A stretch of 64,000 bases of DNA from Dehalococcoidia bacterium (GTDB taxonomy: Bacteria > Chloroflexota > Dehalococcoidia > GIF9 > AB-539-J10). This document shows positions 43,932 through 63,924 of the stretch, piece after piece; the stretch's first letter is position 1, and each line of letters starts with the position of its first letter. The stretch lies in assembly GCA_007129495.1 (NCBI GenBank), contig SKVJ01000039.1, positions 1 to 64,000 on the forward strand, given 5' to 3'. The position numbers and the translations under genes were made by a program. The notes below the pieces were generated by a model, which did not search any database, was not told where the DNA came from, and saw only the letters and a program-made list of their open reading frames with translations.

Positions 43932-44924
43932 TCAAATGTGGCTGATATCCACCAATCGCTCGTAGTCAATCAGGCCGCTCTCAGCCGAGTTTTCTACTTC
44001 AATCCCTGCTTCTGCTGCTGCTGCGACCGGATTGAGGCCACCGAGCAAGATCATGCCTACCTTGTTCATACCAACTTCTATCTGACATATCGGCTCACTG
44101 GTGTTGCCGAGAAGGTAGACACCATGAATGCCCGCAGCTCGAAGTTCCTCGATGCGCCTTTCGACTACGACACGCGACGGAGCGAGAATTTCGCGGAAAT
44201 TGGCGAGGATGCGTCCTGTGCCGGATTCAGCAGCATTTCTGACATCTGTCATTCCGGCGCGTATGTACTGTTCCGAAGGATCAAGGGAAGTGCCATCATA
44301 CTTGATAATGGCAACGAACCGCCGTGGCCTCCCGCTCTTGAGTTCCAGTACGCCCCCGAAGCGTGACTCAATGGGGACCGAGGACTTCAGCAGGACACCA
44401 TTCACAACCACTCCGCACACGGTTGCCAGACCTACCATCCCTGCCGGCACCACACGCGTGCCTAATTTCTCCCCCTCGTGAGCCACTGACACCAGCCGGC
44501 TCGCACAGAGATTGCGGTCGAAGGCCGGTTGCATCTCTTGTAGCGCGTTGCGAAAGTCATCGGCGCGGAAGAGCGAAGTGTTTACGGGAACAAGTCCTGT
44601 CCTGCGGTTCGGGTCGAACGTGGTCTGGAACGCGAGGAGTTGCAGTTTCTCGATGATGAACCCCACCTGTTCCGGTGCGAGTGCATTGCGCAACTCATCG
44701 AGCCCCTCCCAGGTAATGATTCTGCCATCCCGTCCTTTGGGCTCGGTATAGCCTCGTTCGTCGGTCATCCGCAGGTGATACCGTACTGCTCTCTCGCTCA
44801 GAAAGACACCGTGTCTCTCCAGGTCACGAGAAATCGTGATGGATCCGAGGGGTTCGGCTGATTCCGACAGAACCTTCAGAATGGCGATGGTCTTTCGTTC
44901 GGTGTCTCTATCAAGGGTCTGCAT
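43932..44924 (-). CDS. nrpR: NrpR-type transcriptional repressor of nitrogen genes
   Basis: The 330-residue protein has an N-terminal winged-helix domain (TERKTIAILKVLSESAEPLG to AVRYHLRMTDERGYTEPKGRDG) and one NrpR regulatory domain (DUF128), which includes VPAGMVGLATVCGVVVNGVL and MILLGGLNPVAAAAEAGIEV. In methanogens NrpR represses nitrogen-assimilation genes and is released by 2-oxoglutarate; those proteins often carry two regulatory domains or a partner, whereas here there is one. It ends the minus-strand set nadE-carA-purF-pdxT-nrpR and lies near glnA and gdh. Control of those genes is inferred: by eye I found no archaeal-type GGAA-N6-TTCC operator in the leaders of gdh or glnA. Confidence 0.88.
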   Translation of the reverse strand: MQTLDRDTERKTIAILKVLSESAEPLGSITISRDLERHGVFLSERAVRYHLRMTDERGYTEPKGRDGRIITWEGLDELRNALAPEQVGFIIEKLQLLAFQTTFDPNRRTGLVPVNTSLFRADDFRNALQEMQPAFDRNLCASRLVSVAHEGEKLGTRVVPAGMVGLATVCGVVVNGVLLKSSVPIESRFGGVLELKSGRPRRFVAIIKYDGTSLDPSEQYIRAGMTDVRNAAESGTGRILANFREILAPSRVVVERRIEELRAAGIHGVYLLGNTSEPICQIEVGMNKVGMILLGGLNPVAAAAEAGIEVENSAESGLIDYERLVDISHI

Positions 44925-55026: not shown

Positions 55027-55698
55027 CTACACGTGCTTGCGAAAGCGGTAACCGATGTTGCGCACTGTGTCGATGAATGTATGCCCCGGATCCTCAAGTT
55101 TGCTCCGTAGCCGCCTTATGTGCACGTCCACTGTTCGATCGCCACCATAGTAGTCGTAGCCCCACACTTTGTTGAGAAGCGACTGACGAGTGTGTACACG
55201 ACCAGGCTCGCGTGCCAGAAACTTGAGAAGTTCATACTCTTTGAAGGTCAACTCGACTAGTCGTCCTGCGATACTAACCTCGCACGTCGCGGCATTGATG
55301 GCGAGGTCTCCATGCCGCATGAGGTCGGCGCTTTCGGGGTGAAGAGTGAGAAGGTGCCTGACTCTGGCACGCAATTCGGTATCCGAAGAACTGCCAACGA
55401 AGAAGTCCTCGATGCCGATGGCAGGCCAGGCGACGTCAAGGAGGTCGAACGTGATAACGGTGAGCAGCGGGCTGTCCGTGATTGCCTTTATCCTCGGCGG
55501 CATTGCGGTAAGATCGTCGGGCGAGTCAGCAACGAGAATCACCGCCGATGTCGCTGCGAGCAGAAAACTCTCGATCGAAGTGGTATTCGAGGCTTTCCTG
55601 ACCTTGGCGGGAAGCAGGGCAAGCGCCTGTGGCAGTTCAGGAAAAGGAGAGGGTTCGGGATGCACGATTGCGAGATGCGGGATCGGTAGGTTGTTCAC
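55027..55698 (-). CDS. OmpR/PhoB-type response regulator with degenerate receiver (GlnR-like arrangement)
   Basis: The 223-residue protein has a typical C-terminal winged helix (ELTFKEYELLKFLAREPGRV, SLLNKVWGYDYYGGDRTVDV, IDTVRNIGYRF). The N-terminal 120 residues have the size and hydrophobic pattern of a receiver, but the acidic pair of the first strand is replaced (LAIVHPEPS) and the conserved Lys near the end is missing (FFVGSSSDTELRARV). Only VAD in the third strand may match the phosphorylated Asp. Such a domain should not respond to normal phosphorylation. No histidine kinase is nearby. Orphan OmpR-type GlnR proteins of Actinobacteria share this design and control nitrogen genes; the position at the end of the glutamate synthase operon suggests a similar role, by inference only. 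Confidence 0.8.
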   Translation of the reverse strand: MNNLPIPHLAIVHPEPSPFPELPQALALLPAKVRKASNTTSIESFLLAATSAVILVADSPDDLTAMPPRIKAITDSPLLTVITFDLLDVAWPAIGIEDFFVGSSSDTELRARVRHLLTLHPESADLMRHGDLAINAATCEVSIAGRLVELTFKEYELLKFLAREPGRVHTRQSLLNKVWGYDYYGGDRTVDVHIRRLRSKLEDPGHTFIDTVRNIGYRFRKHV

Positions 55699-55710
55699 TT
55701 GCGTCCTGCG

Positions 55711-56478
55711 TTAGTAAGCGTATAGTCTGCCGTATGGCCGCAGGTATAGTGGGAACAGCTTCACGAAATCAGCATCCAATATTTGATCCGCATTCGTTCC
55801 AAATTGAGCCGAGTACCTGCCGATAGCCTCCCTGATGATACAGAAATCCCTATCATCAGGAGCAGCGACTCCAACTTCCTTCCCAAGCTGGTGACTTTCT
55901 ATTGGGCCACGAAGGAAGATGGCTCCGCCGTGCATTCCTGTACCCACGAACCTCGCTCGCGACCATGCAGATCCACGTGTCATCAATCCTAACACGATAA
56001 GTGTGCCACCTGCCATGTACTCGCCCAAAAAGTCCTGCGCTCCACCTCCTACAACCACTGTTGGACCTTTTCCCTCATACTCCTTCATGTGGATGCCGGC
56101 TCTGTAGCCTGCACTGTCACGGACCAGAATGGTTCCGCCACGAGCGGCCAGTCCAAGCGCATCACCTGTATGCCCGTGAATCACTATCTCGCCACCATTC
56201 ATGGTATTGCCCACGCCATCCTGGCCGTTGCCATGGATGATGAGAGATGGTCCACTCATGAACGCACCGAGATCGTTGCCAGGCGTTCCATGCAGGTCAA
56301 TCGTCACTTGCGCGTTCAGGTTTGTTCCGATATAGCGCTGGCCATTCACATTGCGGACCGTGATGTGTTTGGCACCTTGGCCGACCGCCTGGTTGAGGAG
56401 GGTATTCAGATCGCGAAATGCCATTCTGCGTGCGTCGATTTCCATCGCCATACTCTCCAATGGTGTGGCTGTTGCCAT
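55711..56478 (-). CDS. Glutamate synthase GXGXG domain as a separate subunit (GltB3-type)
   Basis: The 255-residue protein corresponds to the C-terminal beta-helix domain of glutamate synthase large subunits. It has VRNVNGQRYIGTNLNAQVTI followed by glycine-rich turns (GPSLIIHGNGQDGVGNTMNGG, GHTGDALGLAARGG, VGTGMHGGAIFLRG). In the one-chain enzyme this domain is structural and helps form the ammonia path. Here it is its own gene, 3 bases after the FMN/ferredoxin subunit gene and 12 bases before the regulator gene, as in archaeal-type split enzymes. Confidence 0.9.
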   Translation of the reverse strand: MATATPLESMAMEIDARRMAFRDLNTLLNQAVGQGAKHITVRNVNGQRYIGTNLNAQVTIDLHGTPGNDLGAFMSGPSLIIHGNGQDGVGNTMNGGEIVIHGHTGDALGLAARGGTILVRDSAGYRAGIHMKEYEGKGPTVVVGGGAQDFLGEYMAGGTLIVLGLMTRGSAWSRARFVGTGMHGGAIFLRGPIESHQLGKEVGVAAPDDRDFCIIREAIGRYSAQFGTNADQILDADFVKLFPLYLRPYGRLYAY

Positions 56479-56481
56479 ATT

Positions 56482-57984
56482 TCACCTGCCAGCCATTCTG
56501 ACCCCGAGGATTTCAAGCTCTGTGTCGCTAAGGCCAACTCCCCTGAGGTGGAGCCGATTGCCCCGAAGGCTCTCGATTGCATTTACTCCCATTCCGCCAA
56601 GCATATCCATTATTTCAAGGCTCCATCCCCTGACGAGATTGATCACTCTTTGCGCACCAATCTCCGGGTTAATGCGTTTAGTAAGAACCGGGTCGCTCGT
56701 GCATATGCCCCAGTTGCACTTGCCTGTGTAGCACTGCTGGCACACGTGGCAGCCAAGGGCGATCAAGGCTGCGGTGCCGATATATACGGCATCTGCCCCC
56801 AACGCGATAGCTTTTGCCACGTCGCCACTGCACCGAAGACCACCGGAGGCGACGACCGAAGCCTGGTTGCGGATACCCTCTTCACGCAACCTGGTATCAA
56901 CCGATGCCAGCGCCAGCTCTAAGGGGATTCCGACGCTATCCCGAATCGCCTTGGGTGCAGCGCCGGTTGCGCCGCGCAATCCATCAACTACGATGATGTC
57001 CGCTCCCGCACGTACCATTCCGCTTGCAATGGCTGCCACATTATGCACTGCTGCTATCTTCACCGAGACCGGCTTCTCATAGTTGGTCACTTCCTTGATC
57101 GCATAGATGAGTTGACGGAGATCCTCTATTGAATAGATGTCGTGATGCGGAGCGGGTGATAGTGCATCGGTACCGATGGGGATCATTCTGGTCTTGGAAA
57201 CCTCGTCAGTCACCTTCTCTCCGGGTAGATGGCCGCCGATTCCAGGCTTGGCTCCCTGGCCAATCTTGATCTCGATGATGCGGGCAGAGCGAAGATACTC
57301 CGGGTTCACGCCATAGCGGCCTGATGCAACTTGAACCGTGGTGTTCGGTCCATACCGGGCGAGAGACGGGTGCAGTCCGCCTTCACCAGTGTTCCATAGA
57401 GTACCCAATTCGGTGGCGGCCCTCGCCAGGGAGAGTTGAACGTTCAGGCTGACCGCGCCGTACGACATCGCGGCGAACATGATAGGTGTCTCCAGCTTCA
57501 CCTGTGGGGCCAAGGTTGTCGTTAGGATTCCGGCTTCATCGAAGGTGAGCCGGTCGGGTTTCCTTCCGAGGTACGTACTGAGTTCCATCGGCTCCCGCAG
57601 TGGGTCAATTGAAGGATTAGTTACCTGGCTCGCGTTAAGCAGCAGATGATCCCAGTAGATAGTATGGTTCTTATCGTCGCCCATTCCCGTAAGGAGCATG
57701 CCTCCGCTCTCTGCCTGCTTGAGAATATCTTCAATAACCTCGGGCCGCCAGTTAGCATTCGTGCGGTATTCGAGGGGATTGCGGCGAATTGTGAGTGCGT
57801 TGGTAGGACAGAAGACCACACACCTGTGGCATCCCACACAGTTGTCTTCATGAGCTTTTACAGTGTGGTCATCCTCGTCGAAATAGTGGACCTTGAAGCT
57901 GCACTGGGTCACGCAGACGTTGCACTGGATGCATCTTGTCGGATCGCGTTCCACAATGAATCTGGTAGGCAAGAAACTCTTCAT
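56482..57984 (-). CDS. Glutamate synthase FMN domain with N-terminal ferredoxin module (GltB2-type)
   Basis: The 500-residue protein starts with two [4Fe-4S] motifs (CIQCNVCVTQCS; CVGCHRCVVFCP), followed by the FMN-binding TIM barrel of glutamate synthase (MFAAMSYGAVSLNVQLSLARAA, GQGAKPGIGGHLPGEKV, IVVDGLRGATGAAP). A cysteine cluster (CHVCQQCYTGKCNWGIC) probably holds the 3Fe-4S centre. It turns 2-oxoglutarate plus ammonia into glutamate using electrons from ferredoxin or a partner flavoprotein. AGGA precedes ATG 57984; the longer track ORF runs back into hisF. It follows hisF by 10 bases. Confidence 0.92.
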   Translation of the reverse strand: MKSFLPTRFIVERDPTRCIQCNVCVTQCSFKVHYFDEDDHTVKAHEDNCVGCHRCVVFCPTNALTIRRNPLEYRTNANWRPEVIEDILKQAESGGMLLTGMGDDKNHTIYWDHLLLNASQVTNPSIDPLREPMELSTYLGRKPDRLTFDEAGILTTTLAPQVKLETPIMFAAMSYGAVSLNVQLSLARAATELGTLWNTGEGGLHPSLARYGPNTTVQVASGRYGVNPEYLRSARIIEIKIGQGAKPGIGGHLPGEKVTDEVSKTRMIPIGTDALSPAPHHDIYSIEDLRQLIYAIKEVTNYEKPVSVKIAAVHNVAAIASGMVRAGADIIVVDGLRGATGAAPKAIRDSVGIPLELALASVDTRLREEGIRNQASVVASGGLRCSGDVAKAIALGADAVYIGTAALIALGCHVCQQCYTGKCNWGICTSDPVLTKRINPEIGAQRVINLVRGWSLEIMDMLGGMGVNAIESLRGNRLHLRGVGLSDTELEILGVRMAGR

Positions 57985-57994
57985 GATGTTATTC

Positions 57995-58762
57995 CTAGTT
58001 TCGGATTGCGATGCCTTTCGCTGCAAGGTACTGCTTTGTCGCAAGAATGTCGGTTTCATTGTAGTGGAATATGCTTGCCGCCAGTACGGCATCAGCTTCG
58101 CCTTCCTCAAGCGCACGATAGAGATCCTGAGGTGATCCTGCTCCCCCACTTGCAATTACGGGGATCGACACCTGCGTCGAGATCGCTCGAGTGAGTTCAA
58201 TGTCGTAACCCGTGCGGTGGCCGTCGGCATCCATGCTGGTGAGAAGTATTTCTCCCGCTCCCAGTGCGGCAGCCTGCGCAGCCCACTGCACGGCATCGAT
58301 GTCTACAGCCACGCTTCCACCGTACGCGTGTACCTGCCATCGGAGAGGATTGCTGCCGGGAATACGTTTCGCATCTATTGCGACGACGACACACTGGCTG
58401 CCGAAGCGGTCGGCGGCCTGGCTGATTAGATCCGGGTGGCGTACCGCCGAGGTATTGACCGAAATTTTGTCCGCGCCGCTCAACAGCAGGCGCCGCATGT
58501 CCTCAACAGTGCGAAGTCCACCGCCCACTGTAAGTGGAATGAAGACGACCTCAGCTATGCGCTCCACGAGTGTAGCCATAGTTTCCCTGTGCTCTTTGCT
58601 TGCAGTGATGTCGAGGAAGACCAGTTCGTCAGCCCCTCCGCGGTAGTAGCGGCGGGCGAGTTCGACCGGATCCCCGGAGTCGCGAAGGGACTGGAAGCTC
58701 TTTCCCTTCACGACGCGACCATCCTTCACGTCGAGACAGGGAATGATGCGCTTAGTCAGCAC
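57995..58762 (-). CDS. hisF: Imidazole glycerol phosphate synthase cyclase subunit
   Basis: HisF forms imidazole glycerol phosphate and AICAR from PRFAR with ammonia from HisH. The 255-residue barrel keeps both catalytic Asp residues ([17 protein letters not shown] and VVVAIDAKR) and the phosphate loops ([20 protein letters not shown]), so it looks like a working enzyme. GTG 58762 follows GAGGT and lies inside the end of the amidotransferase gene (11-base overlap), giving tight coupling. The placement between two glutamate synthase subunits, away from other his genes, is unusual. Confidence 0.94.
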
Positions 58763-59900
58763 GAGCAGGTACCTCAATTGCAGGCCGTTGCTCGTCGGAT
58801 GACGGCATGTTCCCCAAGCGTGAGATGACAGGCTGGCCGCCGATCGGTATCCAGGTGTCGTCCAGTTCGGGGCTTACAAGTCTGATAGCCGATTCTTCCG
58901 AGGAGAGAAAGACCCTGGTACCCTGCGTAGCCACTACCAGCGGGCGGAGGCGGATCCTGTCGGTGAGTCCTACCATTTCACCTTCACGTGCGATGATGAC
59001 AGTGAATGGCCCGTTCAGCAACAAACCGCCGTATGTGATGCGCAACGCCTCCATCACTTGAGCCTCAACTGCCTCCATCCGCGGAGCATCAGACCAGAAG
59101 GGTGCGGCGAGAACCTTCGCGGCTATCCGCATCGGCAGCTGATGTCGTCGAACCAGCAGATCGACTGCATAAGCAACAACTTCGGTGTCCGTTTGCAGCG
59201 AACATATGTAGCCATACTGTTCGAGTGTGCGCTTGTTAATGCCATACGAAGATATTTCGCCATTGTGAACGACGGTCCAATCCAGAAGGCTGAATGGGTG
59301 AGCGCCGCCCCACCATCCGGGAGTGTTGGTGGGAAATCTGCCATGGGCTGTCCATATATAGCCGCTATAGTGTTCGAGTCTGAAGAACCGGGCGATATCG
59401 TATGGATGGCCAACGCCCTTGAAGACACCCATGTTCTTCCCGGCCGAAAACACGAAGCTATCGGAGATATGTGAATTGATATGCATGGTCTTGTCGGCAA
59501 CGTACTGAGCTTCATCGCTGACACCGAGTTTCTCGGGCCGGACGGACGCGAAGTACCTTTGCATCAAGGGTGGATTGGCGATGAGGTCCGGATCAACCTC
59601 CATCGCCTCGGATTGCGCGATGACGAAGGACTCCGCAAGGTAGGCTTCAGTGTCACGTTGCCCTTGCCTGCTTGTGTACATAACGTGAAACGCAAACTCC
59701 TCCGGACGCTCCGGGTATAAGCCGTATGCGGCGAATCCACCACCGAGACCGTTATCCCTGTCCCTCATCAGGTCGATTGCCTGAATGGCTACATCCGCCG
59801 GAATGGAGGCGCCGGATGTATCCATCACTCCAAAAATCGAGCACCCGTCGGATACCTTGTCGTCCCTGTATCTGTTATTGAGCTGGGTTAGATTCTTCAT
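58752..59900 (-). CDS. Glutamate synthase glutaminase domain as a separate subunit (GltB1-type, class II GATase)
   Basis: The 382-residue protein is a class II amidotransferase like the N-terminal domain of glutamate synthase. The presumed nucleophile is Cys20 in [14 protein letters not shown], which implies removal of a 19-residue propeptide. [17 protein letters not shown], the oxyanion Asn in [15 protein letters not shown], and [16 protein letters not shown] complete the site. It would feed ammonia to the FMN subunit encoded two genes downstream. It lies 39 bases after the flavoprotein gene and overlaps hisF. Confidence 0.9.
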
Positions 59901-59939
59901 TTCGTCACCGCTTCCTGCTGATAATGCGCCGACATCTCT

Positions 59940-61211
59940 TCATGTCACCGCAGTCAGTTCGTCATGCCATAGATGCGCTGGAATGGACAGTAGTCCGAAG
60001 TCTTCGCGGACGAGGATCTCCTGCCAGCCTTCAACCCTGACCTTCTCCTTCATGAGTAGATGCAGTAGGCCGCACTTGCTCGTGTCCCCGATGGCAACCA
60101 TACCAATCACTATGCCACCCTTCAGGATTACTTGTCTATAATAGCCTGGTCCCTCTGATACTACCTTCTCATGGAGTGCGGGATTGTATTCAACCACACC
60201 CGCCGATCCCACAGACAAGCCGAAATAGGGAATAGAATTAAGTGTGGTGCTCCCATCATATAAACGCTGTTGGCCGGTCATACTAGCACCCGCTACTGCA
60301 CCTCCTGCCACTGCATTAGGCCAAGTGGCAAGCACGGACTCCTGCTCCCGTACGAAGTCGTATGTCCTGCAGGCATCACCACATGCGAAGATGTCCTGCG
60401 CCGTAGTTCTCATGGAAGTATCCACTAGGATGCCCTGGTCGATGAAGGCGATGCTTTCAGCCAGTTCAGTACGAGGTCTCACTCCTACTGCAAGTATTAC
60501 GAGTTCACACTGGATCCTTGTACCATCGTCGAGAGTCACGCTGGAGACTGACAGTGATTCCGGATGATCGCCATTTATGGATGTCACCTGTTTCCCGGTT
60601 GCGACATGCACTCCGGCTGCAATCGCGGCGCCCTGCACAAGTGAGGAGCCTGTGGCATCAAGCATCGTGCTGAGTAGGCGAGGCTGCATCTCAATGACAG
60701 TTACGTCCACCCCGTACTTGCGCAATGCGTCGGCTGCACTGAGTCCGATGAGACCACCTCCCACGACTACTGCACGCCGGGATGCCGGTAGATGTCGCGC
60801 AATCTGCCGGGCATCATCATATGTGGTGAAGGTGAACACTCCCCGCCTGTTGGTTCCGGTGATCTGTGGCACAATCGGCGAGCTTCCTGTTGCAATCAAT
60901 AGGCGACGCCAAGATGGGTTAGTGCCGTCCCTCAATGAAACCGTTCTCGCAGCGGTGTCAATATGTAACGCAGGGGTGTCCAATCTCAGGTCTATGGAAT
61001 GGTTCTTGTAGAATTCCCGTGGAACAAGATACATCGCATCGATGGTCTTGCCCTCGGATAGGTGTTTGGCTATGAGCGGTCGTGAGTACGCAGCATAGGG
61101 TTCATCCGAAACCATCAATATACGGTTCGACGTATCCGCCTTGCGAATTTCACGGGCGGCAGCGACTGCTCCTGCTGAGTTTCCTATTATCACGTATTCG
61201 TAATCGGCCAT
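59940..61211 (-). CDS. FAD-dependent NAD(P)H oxidoreductase, possible electron donor to the glutamate synthase
   Basis: The 423-residue protein has the FAD motif YVIIGNSAGAVAAAREIRKAD, a second Rossmann motif RRAVVVGGGLIGLSAADALRKYG for NAD(P)H, and the GDACRTYDF segment near the C-terminus. It resembles rubredoxin reductase and nitrite reductase-type pyridine nucleotide oxidoreductases and lacks the redox-active CxxxxC of disulphide reductases. Located between hisH and the glutaminase gene, it may replace the small GltD subunit as the NAD(P)H-oxidising partner; this is inferred from position only. Confidence 0.85.
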   Translation of the reverse strand: MADYEYVIIGNSAGAVAAAREIRKADTSNRILMVSDEPYAAYSRPLIAKHLSEGKTIDAMYLVPREFYKNHSIDLRLDTPALHIDTAARTVSLRDGTNPSWRRLLIATGSSPIVPQITGTNRRGVFTFTTYDDARQIARHLPASRRAVVVGGGLIGLSAADALRKYGVDVTVIEMQPRLLSTMLDATGSSLVQGAAIAAGVHVATGKQVTSINGDHPESLSVSSVTLDDGTRIQCELVILAVGVRPRTELAESIAFIDQGILVDTSMRTTAQDIFACGDACRTYDFVREQESVLATWPNAVAGGAVAGASMTGQQRLYDGSTTLNSIPYFGLSVGSAGVVEYNPALHEKVVSEGPGYYRQVILKGGIVIGMVAIGDTSKCGLLHLLMKEKVRVEGWQEILVREDFGLLSIPAHLWHDELTAVT

Positions 61212-61235
61212 GTAGATGTTCTCCCCCGGTATATA

Positions 61236-61847
61236 CTATGAAGCGGCCAAGTGGAGGAAGTTCTTGTATAGGCGAAGGCCATCAGCACCACTCTTCTCAG
61301 GATGAAACTGCGTGGCAACGGTAAGTCCGTGCTTCACTACACTACAAAAAGGCACGCCGTACTCCGTGGTTGCATTGACAAGCGATGGGTCCACTGGCTC
61401 GACCACGTAGCTGTGCACGAAGTAGAAACTGGCGTCGTTTGGAATGCCGTCGAATAGCGCCGGAACACCTTCGTAGTGGACCTGGTTCCAGCCCATGTGA
61501 GGCACTTTTTGAGAGGCAGGCAAGCGAACAACCCGGCCCCGGAATATGCCGAGACAGTCTTGGCCGATGCCTTCCTCCGAGTGCTCGAACAGAACCTGCA
61601 TCCCCATGCAGATCCCAAGGAAAGGGCGCTCAGCCGCAATCCACTGCGTCACCATCTGAGACGAACCACGAAGTTGCATGTTGGCCATTGTATCGGTGGC
61701 TGCGCCTACCCCAGGCAGTATCATCGCGTGAGCTTTTCGCGCGTCCAAAGCCGATTCGACCACAAGCGGGTCGCTGCCTAGAAACCGCAACGCCGAAATA
61801 ACACTTCTGAGGTTTCCTGCTCCGTAGTCCACGACTGCTACATGCAT
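61236..61847 (-). CDS. hisH: Imidazole glycerol phosphate synthase glutaminase subunit
   Basis: HisH supplies ammonia to HisF. The 203-residue class I amidotransferase has VVDYGAGNLRSVISAL, ILPGVGAATDTM, the nucleophile elbow FLGICMGMQVLFEHSEEG, HMGWNQVHYEG and the triad end ATQFHPEKSG. It looks fully active. It lies 22 bases after the unknown 123-residue gene and 24 bases before the flavoprotein gene, separated from hisF by two glutamate synthase-related genes. Confidence 0.95.
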   Translation of the reverse strand: MHVAVVDYGAGNLRSVISALRFLGSDPLVVESALDARKAHAMILPGVGAATDTMANMQLRGSSQMVTQWIAAERPFLGICMGMQVLFEHSEEGIGQDCLGIFRGRVVRLPASQKVPHMGWNQVHYEGVPALFDGIPNDASFYFVHSYVVEPVDPSLVNATTEYGVPFCSVVKHGLTVATQFHPEKSGADGLRLYKNFLHLAAS

Positions 61848-61869
61848 GATGCTGATACCGCTCCTCTTG

Positions 61870-62241
61870 TCAGTTCTGGATCGCTACTTTCACGGTGTTC
61901 ATTCGGGCTACTACCTGCTGGTTGCTTCCATGTTTCACCACCACGTTCATCTGCTCCAAGACCTCATAGTCGCCATTTGCCACTGAAGCCGAGTCCCACA
62001 ATACCGGGAAGCTGGCGTCTCTTCTGTCGGATGTGCCGACCTGCAACCACGTGTTCTGTCCAACGCTGCGGATATACCAGTTATTCATAATCCGCACGAC
62101 TGGGCCGGACAACCCCATAGAGTCCAAATCCCGGCGGAGAAGTCCTTCGTCAACATTCTCCTTCAGGAGAATGCGACCGGACAGGATCCTGGATGCTTCT
62201 GATGTCGCGACGAAATGGGGGCCCCAATTATCCTGTTGCAT
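61870..62241 (-). CDS. Unknown 123-residue protein of the glutamate synthase-hisHF operon
   Basis: I do not recognise this protein. It is soluble, has no signal peptide and no cysteine-rich or nucleotide-binding motif. Notable segments are ASRILSGRILLKENVDEGLL, VRIMNNWYIRSVGQNTWLQV and a C-terminal VARMNTVKVAIQN. The alternation of charged and hydrophobic residues suggests a small alpha/beta domain. It sits 90 bases after one glutamate synthase-like gene and 22 bases before hisH, so it is transcribed with them. A partner, chaperone or regulatory role for the complex is a guess. Confidence 0.7.
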   Translation of the reverse strand: MQQDNWGPHFVATSEASRILSGRILLKENVDEGLLRRDLDSMGLSGPVVRIMNNWYIRSVGQNTWLQVGTSDRRDASFPVLWDSASVANGDYEVLEQMNVVVKHGSNQQVVARMNTVKVAIQN

Positions 62242-62331
62242 TACTCTTCCTCCTTGGTCGCAAGAATCTCCGGCAGAATGAGTTCATCGTGCGAATCGGG
62301 TGAACATCACGCGATTCCACGTCGCTCCTTC

Positions 62332-63924
62332 CTAGCTGTCAAGTACCGCTAGTGCCTCCTCTCTATATGCATCCATTACGTAGGGGATGCCTGTGACCAG
62401 AGCGCATTCCTGAGTCAGTGACATAAGGTCCCTCCGGCTGATTGCGGACACACTGAAGTTGCGGCTGCCAGCCATAATCTGCTGCAGGCCGACCTTAAGT
62501 TTCTGCGCATAGCTGTAAATGCCTATGGCACCGAGTGGTATTCTCGCCATCTCTTCGTGGCCGACTATCTGCTTCACATCTTCGTAAGAGACGAAGATCT
62601 CCTCCGGTGTAGAGCCGAACTGCCCGACTGTGTTTGGCAGTTTGCCATCGGCTATCCACTTGGCAATATTTTTGCCGACCATACCAGGAATCATGAGGGC
62701 GCGGCCCATGCAGACAGCCTTGACAAATGGCGCACCCAGCGCTAGGGCTTTGAAGACACCATCCTCGCTGCTGAACCCGCCGGCAAATGCGATATCGGGA
62801 ACACGTTCGCCCCTGATCTCAAGTCGCTCGCAGAATTCGTAGGCGGCTGAGTGCAGATAGATGCTGGGGATTCCCCATTCCTCCATCATGCGCCAGGGGC
62901 TCATCCCGGTTCCACCGGGAGCGCCATCTATAGTGATCAGGTCAAGCCGGGCTTTCGAGCCCCATTTGAGGGACATTGCAAGTTCGCGCAGACTGTAGGC
63001 TCCGGTCTTGAGAGTGATGCGCTTGAAGCCGATGTCACGCAACTCCTGTACCGCCTGAAGGAAACCCTCCTCGTCGATGAATCCCAGACGGCTATGACGC
63101 TCGACTTCCTTGAGCGCGCCGCTGGTGAATGCCGATTTGCTCGCCGTAAGCGAGGGGTCAGGTGTCACGATGTACCCCCGCTGCTGCAATTGAAGGGCTC
63201 GCTCCAGCGAGCCGACTTTAATTTCCCCGCCGATGCACTTGGCACCCTGCCCCCATTTGAGTTCGATTGTCTCGAGACCATGCCTGTCATGTACGTATTC
63301 TGCGGCACCGAGGCGTGTATCTTCCACGTTCAGTTGCACGAGGATCTCGCCATAACCATCATGATACCGCCGATAGGTTTCGATGCGACGGTCCATGTCG
63401 GGCGCCCGTCGTACTTTGCCACTGCTATCGAGTTCCAGTTCGGGATCAATGCCGCAGACGTTTTCACCGCAGACGAGTGTGATGCCGCTCAGCGCGGCAC
63501 CTACCGCGAAATGGTCCCAGTTCTTGCGTGCAATCTCTGTTGATCCGAGTGCGCCTGTGAACACAGGCACGCGCAAAGGTACCTTGGAATCCCATCCATA
63601 GCCGGTTTCCGTGTTCACCACGGGAAATGTCGCGGTATCGGGATTGCCTGCTACGCCTTCGGGTAATCCCTTGGCTCCCAGCGCATAACCCTGAATGTTA
63701 AGGTGGGAGTAGTCGACCGGATAGTCTTTGTCTGCTCCGGCAGTAACGTCGCCAAAAGGTCCCGGATAGATCAGTTCGCGGCCACGGAAAGTAGCCTTGA
63801 AGACCTCGCAGTTACCGGTGCATCCGTCGATGCAACGTGAGCACAGGCCACTCATGGGCACGACATCGCGTGAACGGTTGGTGGTACGAGTGGCGTCATT
63901 GCCATTGGGGCGTTTCAAATTCAT
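62332..63924 (-). CDS. FMN-binding glutamate synthase-family protein (second barrel subunit)
   Basis: The 530-residue protein has an N-terminal cysteine group (LCSRCIDGCTGNC) and the FMN barrel of the glutamate synthase family: VPVFTGALGSTEIARKNWDH, KWGQGAKCIGGEIKVG, TIDGAPGGTGMSPWRMM and DIAFAGGFSSEDGVFKALAL. It differs in layout from the ferredoxin-fused barrel downstream: no 2x[4Fe-4S] module and a different C-terminus. It may be a second synthase subunit or a related enzyme such as an alternative FMN aminotransferase. It is the first gene of the operon in the window, 76 bases from the window edge. Confidence 0.85.
   Translation of the reverse strand: MNLKRPNGNDATRTTNRSRDVVPMSGLCSRCIDGCTGNCEVFKATFRGRELIYPGPFGDVTAGADKDYPVDYSHLNIQGYALGAKGLPEGVAGNPDTATFPVVNTETGYGWDSKVPLRVPVFTGALGSTEIARKNWDHFAVGAALSGITLVCGENVCGIDPELELDSSGKVRRAPDMDRRIETYRRYHDGYGEILVQLNVEDTRLGAAEYVHDRHGLETIELKWGQGAKCIGGEIKVGSLERALQLQQRGYIVTPDPSLTASKSAFTSGALKEVERHSRLGFIDEEGFLQAVQELRDIGFKRITLKTGAYSLRELAMSLKWGSKARLDLITIDGAPGGTGMSPWRMMEEWGIPSIYLHSAAYEFCERLEIRGERVPDIAFAGGFSSEDGVFKALALGAPFVKAVCMGRALMIPGMVGKNIAKWIADGKLPNTVGQFGSTPEEIFVSYEDVKQIVGHEEMARIPLGAIGIYSYAQKLKVGLQQIMAGSRNFSVSAISRRDLMSLTQECALVTGIPYVMDAYREEALAVLDS

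Follow-up and report, generated by a model that had tools for sequence, protein, structure and literature searches.

Gene Content of the Locus

The first 64,000 bases of contig C2 (the window), from a Dehalococcoidia genome of 2.1 Mb in 75 contigs, end in a run of genes in which the subunits of a split glutamate synthase (GOGAT, the glt genes) are interleaved with hisH and hisF, which encode the two subunits of imidazole glycerol phosphate (IGP) synthase. The original prediction had placed nine genes here on the minus strand, and all nine were found in the order and at the coordinates claimed, with names backed by matches to Pfam and NCBIfam profiles. The GltB1 protein is 72 to 82% identical to its nearest named relatives, which belong to Dehalococcoidia metagenome-assembled genomes. 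The features, including those outside the nine genes, are as follows.

C2:64496-64515, upstream of the ferredoxin gene and outside the window: predicted operator palindrome, TACGGCAACCGGTTACCGTA
C2:64022-64453, minus strand: 144-residue 4Fe-4S ferredoxin, tenth gene, just past the window edge and 97 bases upstream of FMN530
62332-63924, minus strand: FMN530, a glutamate-synthase-like flavin mononucleotide (FMN) barrel protein (partial PF01645 match, 54 bits)
61870-62241, minus strand: U123, a small protein without a family match
61236-61847, minus strand: HisH, glutaminase subunit of IGP synthase, upstream of the gene for the flavin adenine dinucleotide (FAD) subunit (TIGR01855, 219 bits, cut-off 105)
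59940-61211, minus strand: FAD-dependent NAD(P)H oxidoreductase, PadH/NirB-like, the probable electron-input subunit (PF07992, 199 bits)
58752-59900, minus strand: GltB1, class II glutaminase subunit (GATase_2 match)
57995-58762, minus strand: HisF, cyclase subunit of IGP synthase, between gltB1 and gltB2 (TIGR00735, 374 bits, cut-off 295)
56482-57984, minus strand: GltB2, FMN/4Fe-4S synthase subunit (PF01645 Glu_synthase, 460 bits, plus two 4Fe-4S clusters)
55711-56478, minus strand: GltB3, GXGXG subunit of the split glutamate synthase (PF01493, 107 bits)
55027-55698, minus strand: GltR, an OmpR-type orphan regulator with a degenerate receiver (PF00486, 97 bits)
43935-44924, minus strand: NrpR-family nitrogen repressor (HTH_12 and NRD1_2), candidate regulator of the operon, outside the transcript (PF01995, 242 bits, cut-off 25; PF08461, 64 bits)

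Read in the direction of transcription, from FMN530 to GltR, the successive gaps are 90, 22, 24, 39, -11, 10, 3 and 12 bases. HisF thus overlaps GltB1 by 11 bases and lies 10 bases from GltB2, as had been stated, and this is the only overlap found, where several had been claimed. After gltR, gatB and glnA are set apart by a gap of 293 bases. The nine-gene operon holds as far as its nine members are concerned, but the ferredoxin gene outside the window is a tenth; judged from the sequence, the transcription unit probably comprises ten genes with ferredoxin first. Searches for internal promoters and terminators gave no excess over shuffled sequences, and no Rfam match to a riboswitch leader was found at the operon head.

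Conservation of the Interleaved Order

In a survey of 148 genomes of the class, GltB1 was found in 42, HisF in 134 and HisH in 131, and by contig coordinates hisF adjoins gltB1 in 19 of the 42 GltB1 genomes. Among the named genomes, 79 loci were resolvable; the gene after gltB1 is hisF in 57 of them and gltB2 in 22. When both sets were merged, with duplicates removed and both junctions visible, hisH and hisF were both inside the glt operon in 62 loci, neither was in 35, and in no locus was one found alone; 17 further loci were unscorable on the upstream side. The order is seen in dozens of genomes, diverged from one another and spread over many of the families in the class. Among 16 diverged loci, neighbour sharing was 95% for the operon genes (for which these loci had been selected), 56% of comparisons for nitrogen-island genes (GlnA, AmtB, NrpR, GltR and others), and 4.5% for all other neighbours. 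Because the other flanking genes are shared in only 4.5%, the interleaved order is not explained by general gene-order conservation. The comparison of gene order that had been named as a check therefore shows that the order recurs rather than being absent from relatives, and the all-or-none distribution, the recurrence and the low background sharing bear out the earlier suggestion that the alternation reflects more than chance. The sole oddity is the complete chromosome of G430, in which ferredoxin-hisH-FAD and gltB1-hisF-gltB2-gltB3 are about 475 kb apart; therefore, the operon has split there.

Integrity of the Two Enzymes

The catalytic residues C80, H182 and E184 of HisH are invariant in alignments of 38 to 43 relatives, and in HisF the aspartates D11 and D130 and the ammonia gate residues R5, E46, K99 and E167 are all invariant among 42 relatives (numbering follows the T. 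maritima sequence, with which PDB alignments agree). The nearest solved structures to the window HisF are HisF structures. In GltB1, an invariant C20 follows a short leader and is accompanied by H212, N213, G214 and D238, and GltB2 has eight invariant ferredoxin-type cysteines, with C412, C418 and C423 spaced like a 3Fe-4S ligand set. By these residues and the family scores, hisH and hisF are intact IGP synthase genes, and the split glutamate synthase, whose activity is predicted, is complete in its glutaminase, FMN/Fe-S synthase and GXGXG parts.

The operon hisH is the sole hisH above the cut-off in the genome, which rules out that the operon hisHF pair is a specialised second copy. Of the rest of the histidine pathway, hisZ, hisG, hisD, hisC, hisI and hisA were found by sequence elsewhere in the genome. 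It was also ruled out that the two glutaminases substitute for each other, since GltB1 and HisH both keep their catalytic residues.

The original prediction had offered joint assembly as one reason for the alternation. Under a reading of this kind, HisH/HisF and GltB1/GltB2 would form a mixed complex, or the glutaminases would stand in for each other, and the interleaving would fix the stoichiometry. This would suit the fact that both systems are glutaminase-plus-barrel pairs, and the spacing is tight, with gltB1-hisF overlaps of 7 to 11 bases in many genomes. However, more than a third of the scored glt operons (35 of 97) are without hisHF, six genomes with such an operon carry divergent hisHF pairs elsewhere, hisHF persists as an adjacent pair after glt loss, the operon is split in G430, and the active sites of both enzymes are complete. 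Joint assembly is thus very unlikely.

A Conserved Palindrome at the Operon Head

The palindrome TACGGCAACCGGTTACCGTA lies upstream of the ferredoxin gene, just downstream of promoter-like hexamers. An unbiased count of 4+4 palindromes found ACGG-N10-CCGT in 23 of 89 upstream regions, compared with 0.4 expected, and GGCA-N6-TGCC in 19 of the 89, compared with 1 expected. With a weight matrix, a site was found in 77 of 90 upstream regions, versus 0.3% in shuffles, mostly 30 to 70 bases before the ferredoxin start; the source-genome site has the top motif score among the relatives' regions. Sigma-70-like hexamers stand just upstream of the site in 72 of 75 cases (34 expected). No second site above the scan threshold was present in the window or in a further 20 kb of the contig, and a genome-wide pattern search of the source genome gave three matches compared with two for the reversed control, so that only the operon site stands out.

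The form of the site, GG(C/T/A)A-N6-T(G/A/T)CC, is a close variant of GGAA-N6-TTCC, the operator of methanogen NrpR, whose regulon includes nif, glnK-amtB and glnA (PMC2723118). The exact GGAA-N6-TTCC occurs in some relatives (for example, locus L107) but is not the form of the source-genome site. The site is also found before nrpR itself in several genomes, before hisH-hisF in G082 and G416 (L103 and L104), both without the split GltB1, and in G409 (L130) before a hisHF pair away from glt.

NrpR and GltR as Candidate Regulators

The genome encodes no NrpR other than the one in the window. Among 42 genomes, NrpR was present in all 27 with the site versus 2 to 3 of the 15 without it (Fisher p about 4e-9 to 4e-8, values that overstate the evidence because the genomes are related and not independent). 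For methanogens, repression by NrpR under nitrogen-rich conditions and its release at high 2-oxoglutarate are established. The shared regulation that had been suggested for the two systems is supported by a conserved operator at the operon head that tracks NrpR. Glutamine supply had been proposed as the signal; because methanogen NrpR responds to 2-oxoglutarate, the operon probably follows nitrogen status and not glutamine supply directly.

Alternatively, GltR, which is GlnR-like, could control the operon, with the palindrome as its binding site. Its gene is the last of the operon, and its N-terminus has a weak match to PF21695 GlnR_1st (21.1 bits, under the cut-off of 27), which has no counterpart in L107. 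Genomes G130 and G431 retain gltR in the locus without NrpR, and there the site is weak or absent, which speaks against GltR as the binder; conversely, gltR is missing from two Bathyarchaeota loci that do have the site and NrpR. Control by GltR in place of NrpR is therefore very unlikely.

Several observations weigh against control by NrpR. G445 has NrpR and no site, in G444 NrpR is represented by a fragment alone, G414 combines NrpR with a weak site, and several relocated hisHF pairs are without the operator. The motif was refined from a seed taken from these same sequences, the gaps of 90 to 97 bases near the operon head could hold internal promoters, and GltR could add to or replace control by NrpR. 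With these points taken into account, we still consider it probable, from the comparative sequence evidence, that the 2-oxoglutarate-sensing repressor NrpR controls GOGAT and IGP synthase as one nitrogen-switched operon, in which the single transcript, the binding and the response to 2-oxoglutarate are predicted features.

Evolutionary History

Other Chloroflexota classes and three Bathyarchaeota loci have a plain ferredoxin-FAD-gltB1-gltB2-gltB3 operon. The interleaved form adds hisH between ferredoxin and the FAD gene, and hisF where gltB1 meets gltB2. A GltB tree of 114 operons requires 13 label changes, at least 8 of them forced by supported branches. The best reading of this tree appears to be one gain followed by repeated joint losses of hisHF, with horizontal exchange possible in single cases. 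A single clade for the interleaved operons was weakly rejected (approximately unbiased test, p 0.036), a result explained by nested losses. Histidine auxotrophy mostly fails as a reason for the loss of hisHF from glt, as the nested glt-only genomes retain hisD and one hisH elsewhere; G327, G329 and G429 are without a hisH above the cut-off.

In G337 (L117) the order is hisH-hisF-[last 36 residues of gltB2]-gltB3-nrpR-gltR-amtB-glnA, with the gltB2 remnant at L117:4898-5005, which on its sequence represents loss of the glt operon in progress with hisHF staying. In G066, G082, G416, G178 and G114, hisH-hisF is found beside gltR, amtB, glnA or nrpR without a split gltB1. The canonical order hisH-hisA-hisF-hisI persists both in other families of the class and beyond the class. 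In the source genome hisZ-hisG-hisD-hisC and hisI-hisA are on other contigs; therefore, only the glutamine-using pair has moved to the nitrogen island.

These data also bear on a neutral origin, in which chance brought two his genes into the operon of an ancestor, where they stayed only because breaking an operon is harmful. The tree is compatible with a single origin, and losses are frequent. Such an account would nevertheless have to accommodate two separate insertions of the partner genes of one enzyme, the relocation of only the glutamine-using his genes, losses that are always joint, and an operator that stays with hisHF after glt loss, and we regard it as unlikely.

Two side observations were made on these loci. 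At L064, L112, L113 and L117, where the split GOGAT is lost, a divergent, partly fused glutamate-synthase-like cluster (26 to 36% identity) lies beside or near hisH-hisF, and it is possible that this cluster is a replacement in place of the split GOGAT. In the hisG of the source genome (contig C20, L142:9173-10606), which belongs to the hisZ-hisG-hisD-hisC cluster, two short HisG domains are fused in tandem within a single 477-residue frame.

A Second HisF, U123 and FMN530

The source genome also encodes a solitary second HisF, HisF2 (C30:66253-67014; L144:14254-15021), above the HisF cut-off and without a partner HisH, as do about 21 relatives. Of 22 HisF2 loci, about 13 have nrpR alongside and two have glutamate dehydrogenase. 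It keeps the active-site aspartates, and Q123 and R249, which presumably face HisH as in the T. maritima enzyme, are present in 42 of 42 HisF1 sequences each, compared with 0 and 7 of 22 HisF2 sequences, respectively. An ammonia-dependent alternative is suggested because HisF2 keeps the aspartates, loses the HisH-facing conservation and often adjoins nrpR. A nitrogen switch between HisH-HisF1 (using glutamine, produced along with GOGAT under nitrogen scarcity) and HisH-independent HisF2 (using free ammonia, under nitrogen plenty) is a tentative and rather doubtful reading of this.

Homologues of U123 (122 to 123 residues) were found in about 16 loci (L107, L147, L149, L150, L162, L173, L183, L191 and others) in nitrogen-assimilation islands of the class. 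An AlphaFold prediction of U123 is mostly β strand (pLDDT 85), and a fold search gave no PDB match under E 0.001. FMN530 has a conserved N-terminal cysteine motif and lies repeatedly next to nrpR, HisF2 or glt; a search by sequence gave no relative of solved structure. In two relatives beyond the class it likewise precedes glt, and it is an ancestral neighbour of the glt operon.

Discussion

We propose that ferredoxin-FMN530-U123-hisH-FAD-gltB1-hisF-gltB2-gltB3-gltR would be read from one promoter with an NrpR operator at its start region. When nitrogen is plentiful, NrpR would sit on the palindrome and repress; under nitrogen limitation, 2-oxoglutarate would rise and NrpR would leave the palindrome, and the derepressed transcript would supply both a split glutamate synthase fed by ferredoxin and NAD(P)H and the IGP synthase of HisH and HisF, which is the only glutamine-dependent enzyme of the histidine pathway. 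GOGAT and IGP synthase would remain separate complexes with their own glutaminases, sharing expression alone, and the benefit may be that histidine flux is kept up at low glutamine. Historically, a canonical his operon would have broken up; its glutamine-using hisHF pair would have been transferred to the nitrogen island, with hisH and hisF inserted at two junctions of a glt operon already present.

The operon shares its subunits, order and active-site residues with the archaeal-type split glutamate synthase operon but differs in having hisH and hisF at two fixed junctions and, in the lineage of the window, FMN530 and U123 after ferredoxin. Its HisH and HisF are of the same families as those of the canonical his core hisH-hisA-hisF-hisI, from which only the glutamine-dependent pair has moved away. 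As in the methanogen NrpR regulon, an NrpR family protein and a similar palindrome are found near the promoter of a nitrogen-assimilation operon; in contrast, the host is a bacterium and the candidate targets are GOGAT and IGP synthase, joined by nrpR in some genomes. The NrpR homologues of Dehalococcoides were earlier regarded as likely lateral transfers (PMC1852104). In the literature searched, which left most subscription papers outside its coverage, no description of glt/hisHF interleaving was found.

The locus offers a natural test of operon theory, with two partner genes, two separate insertions and repeated loss only together. If the proposal is true, operon structure would couple a step of an amino-acid pathway directly to the central nitrogen switch, in a class to which the cultured organohalide-respiring Dehalococcoides belong, and bacteria would have a defined set of NrpR targets.

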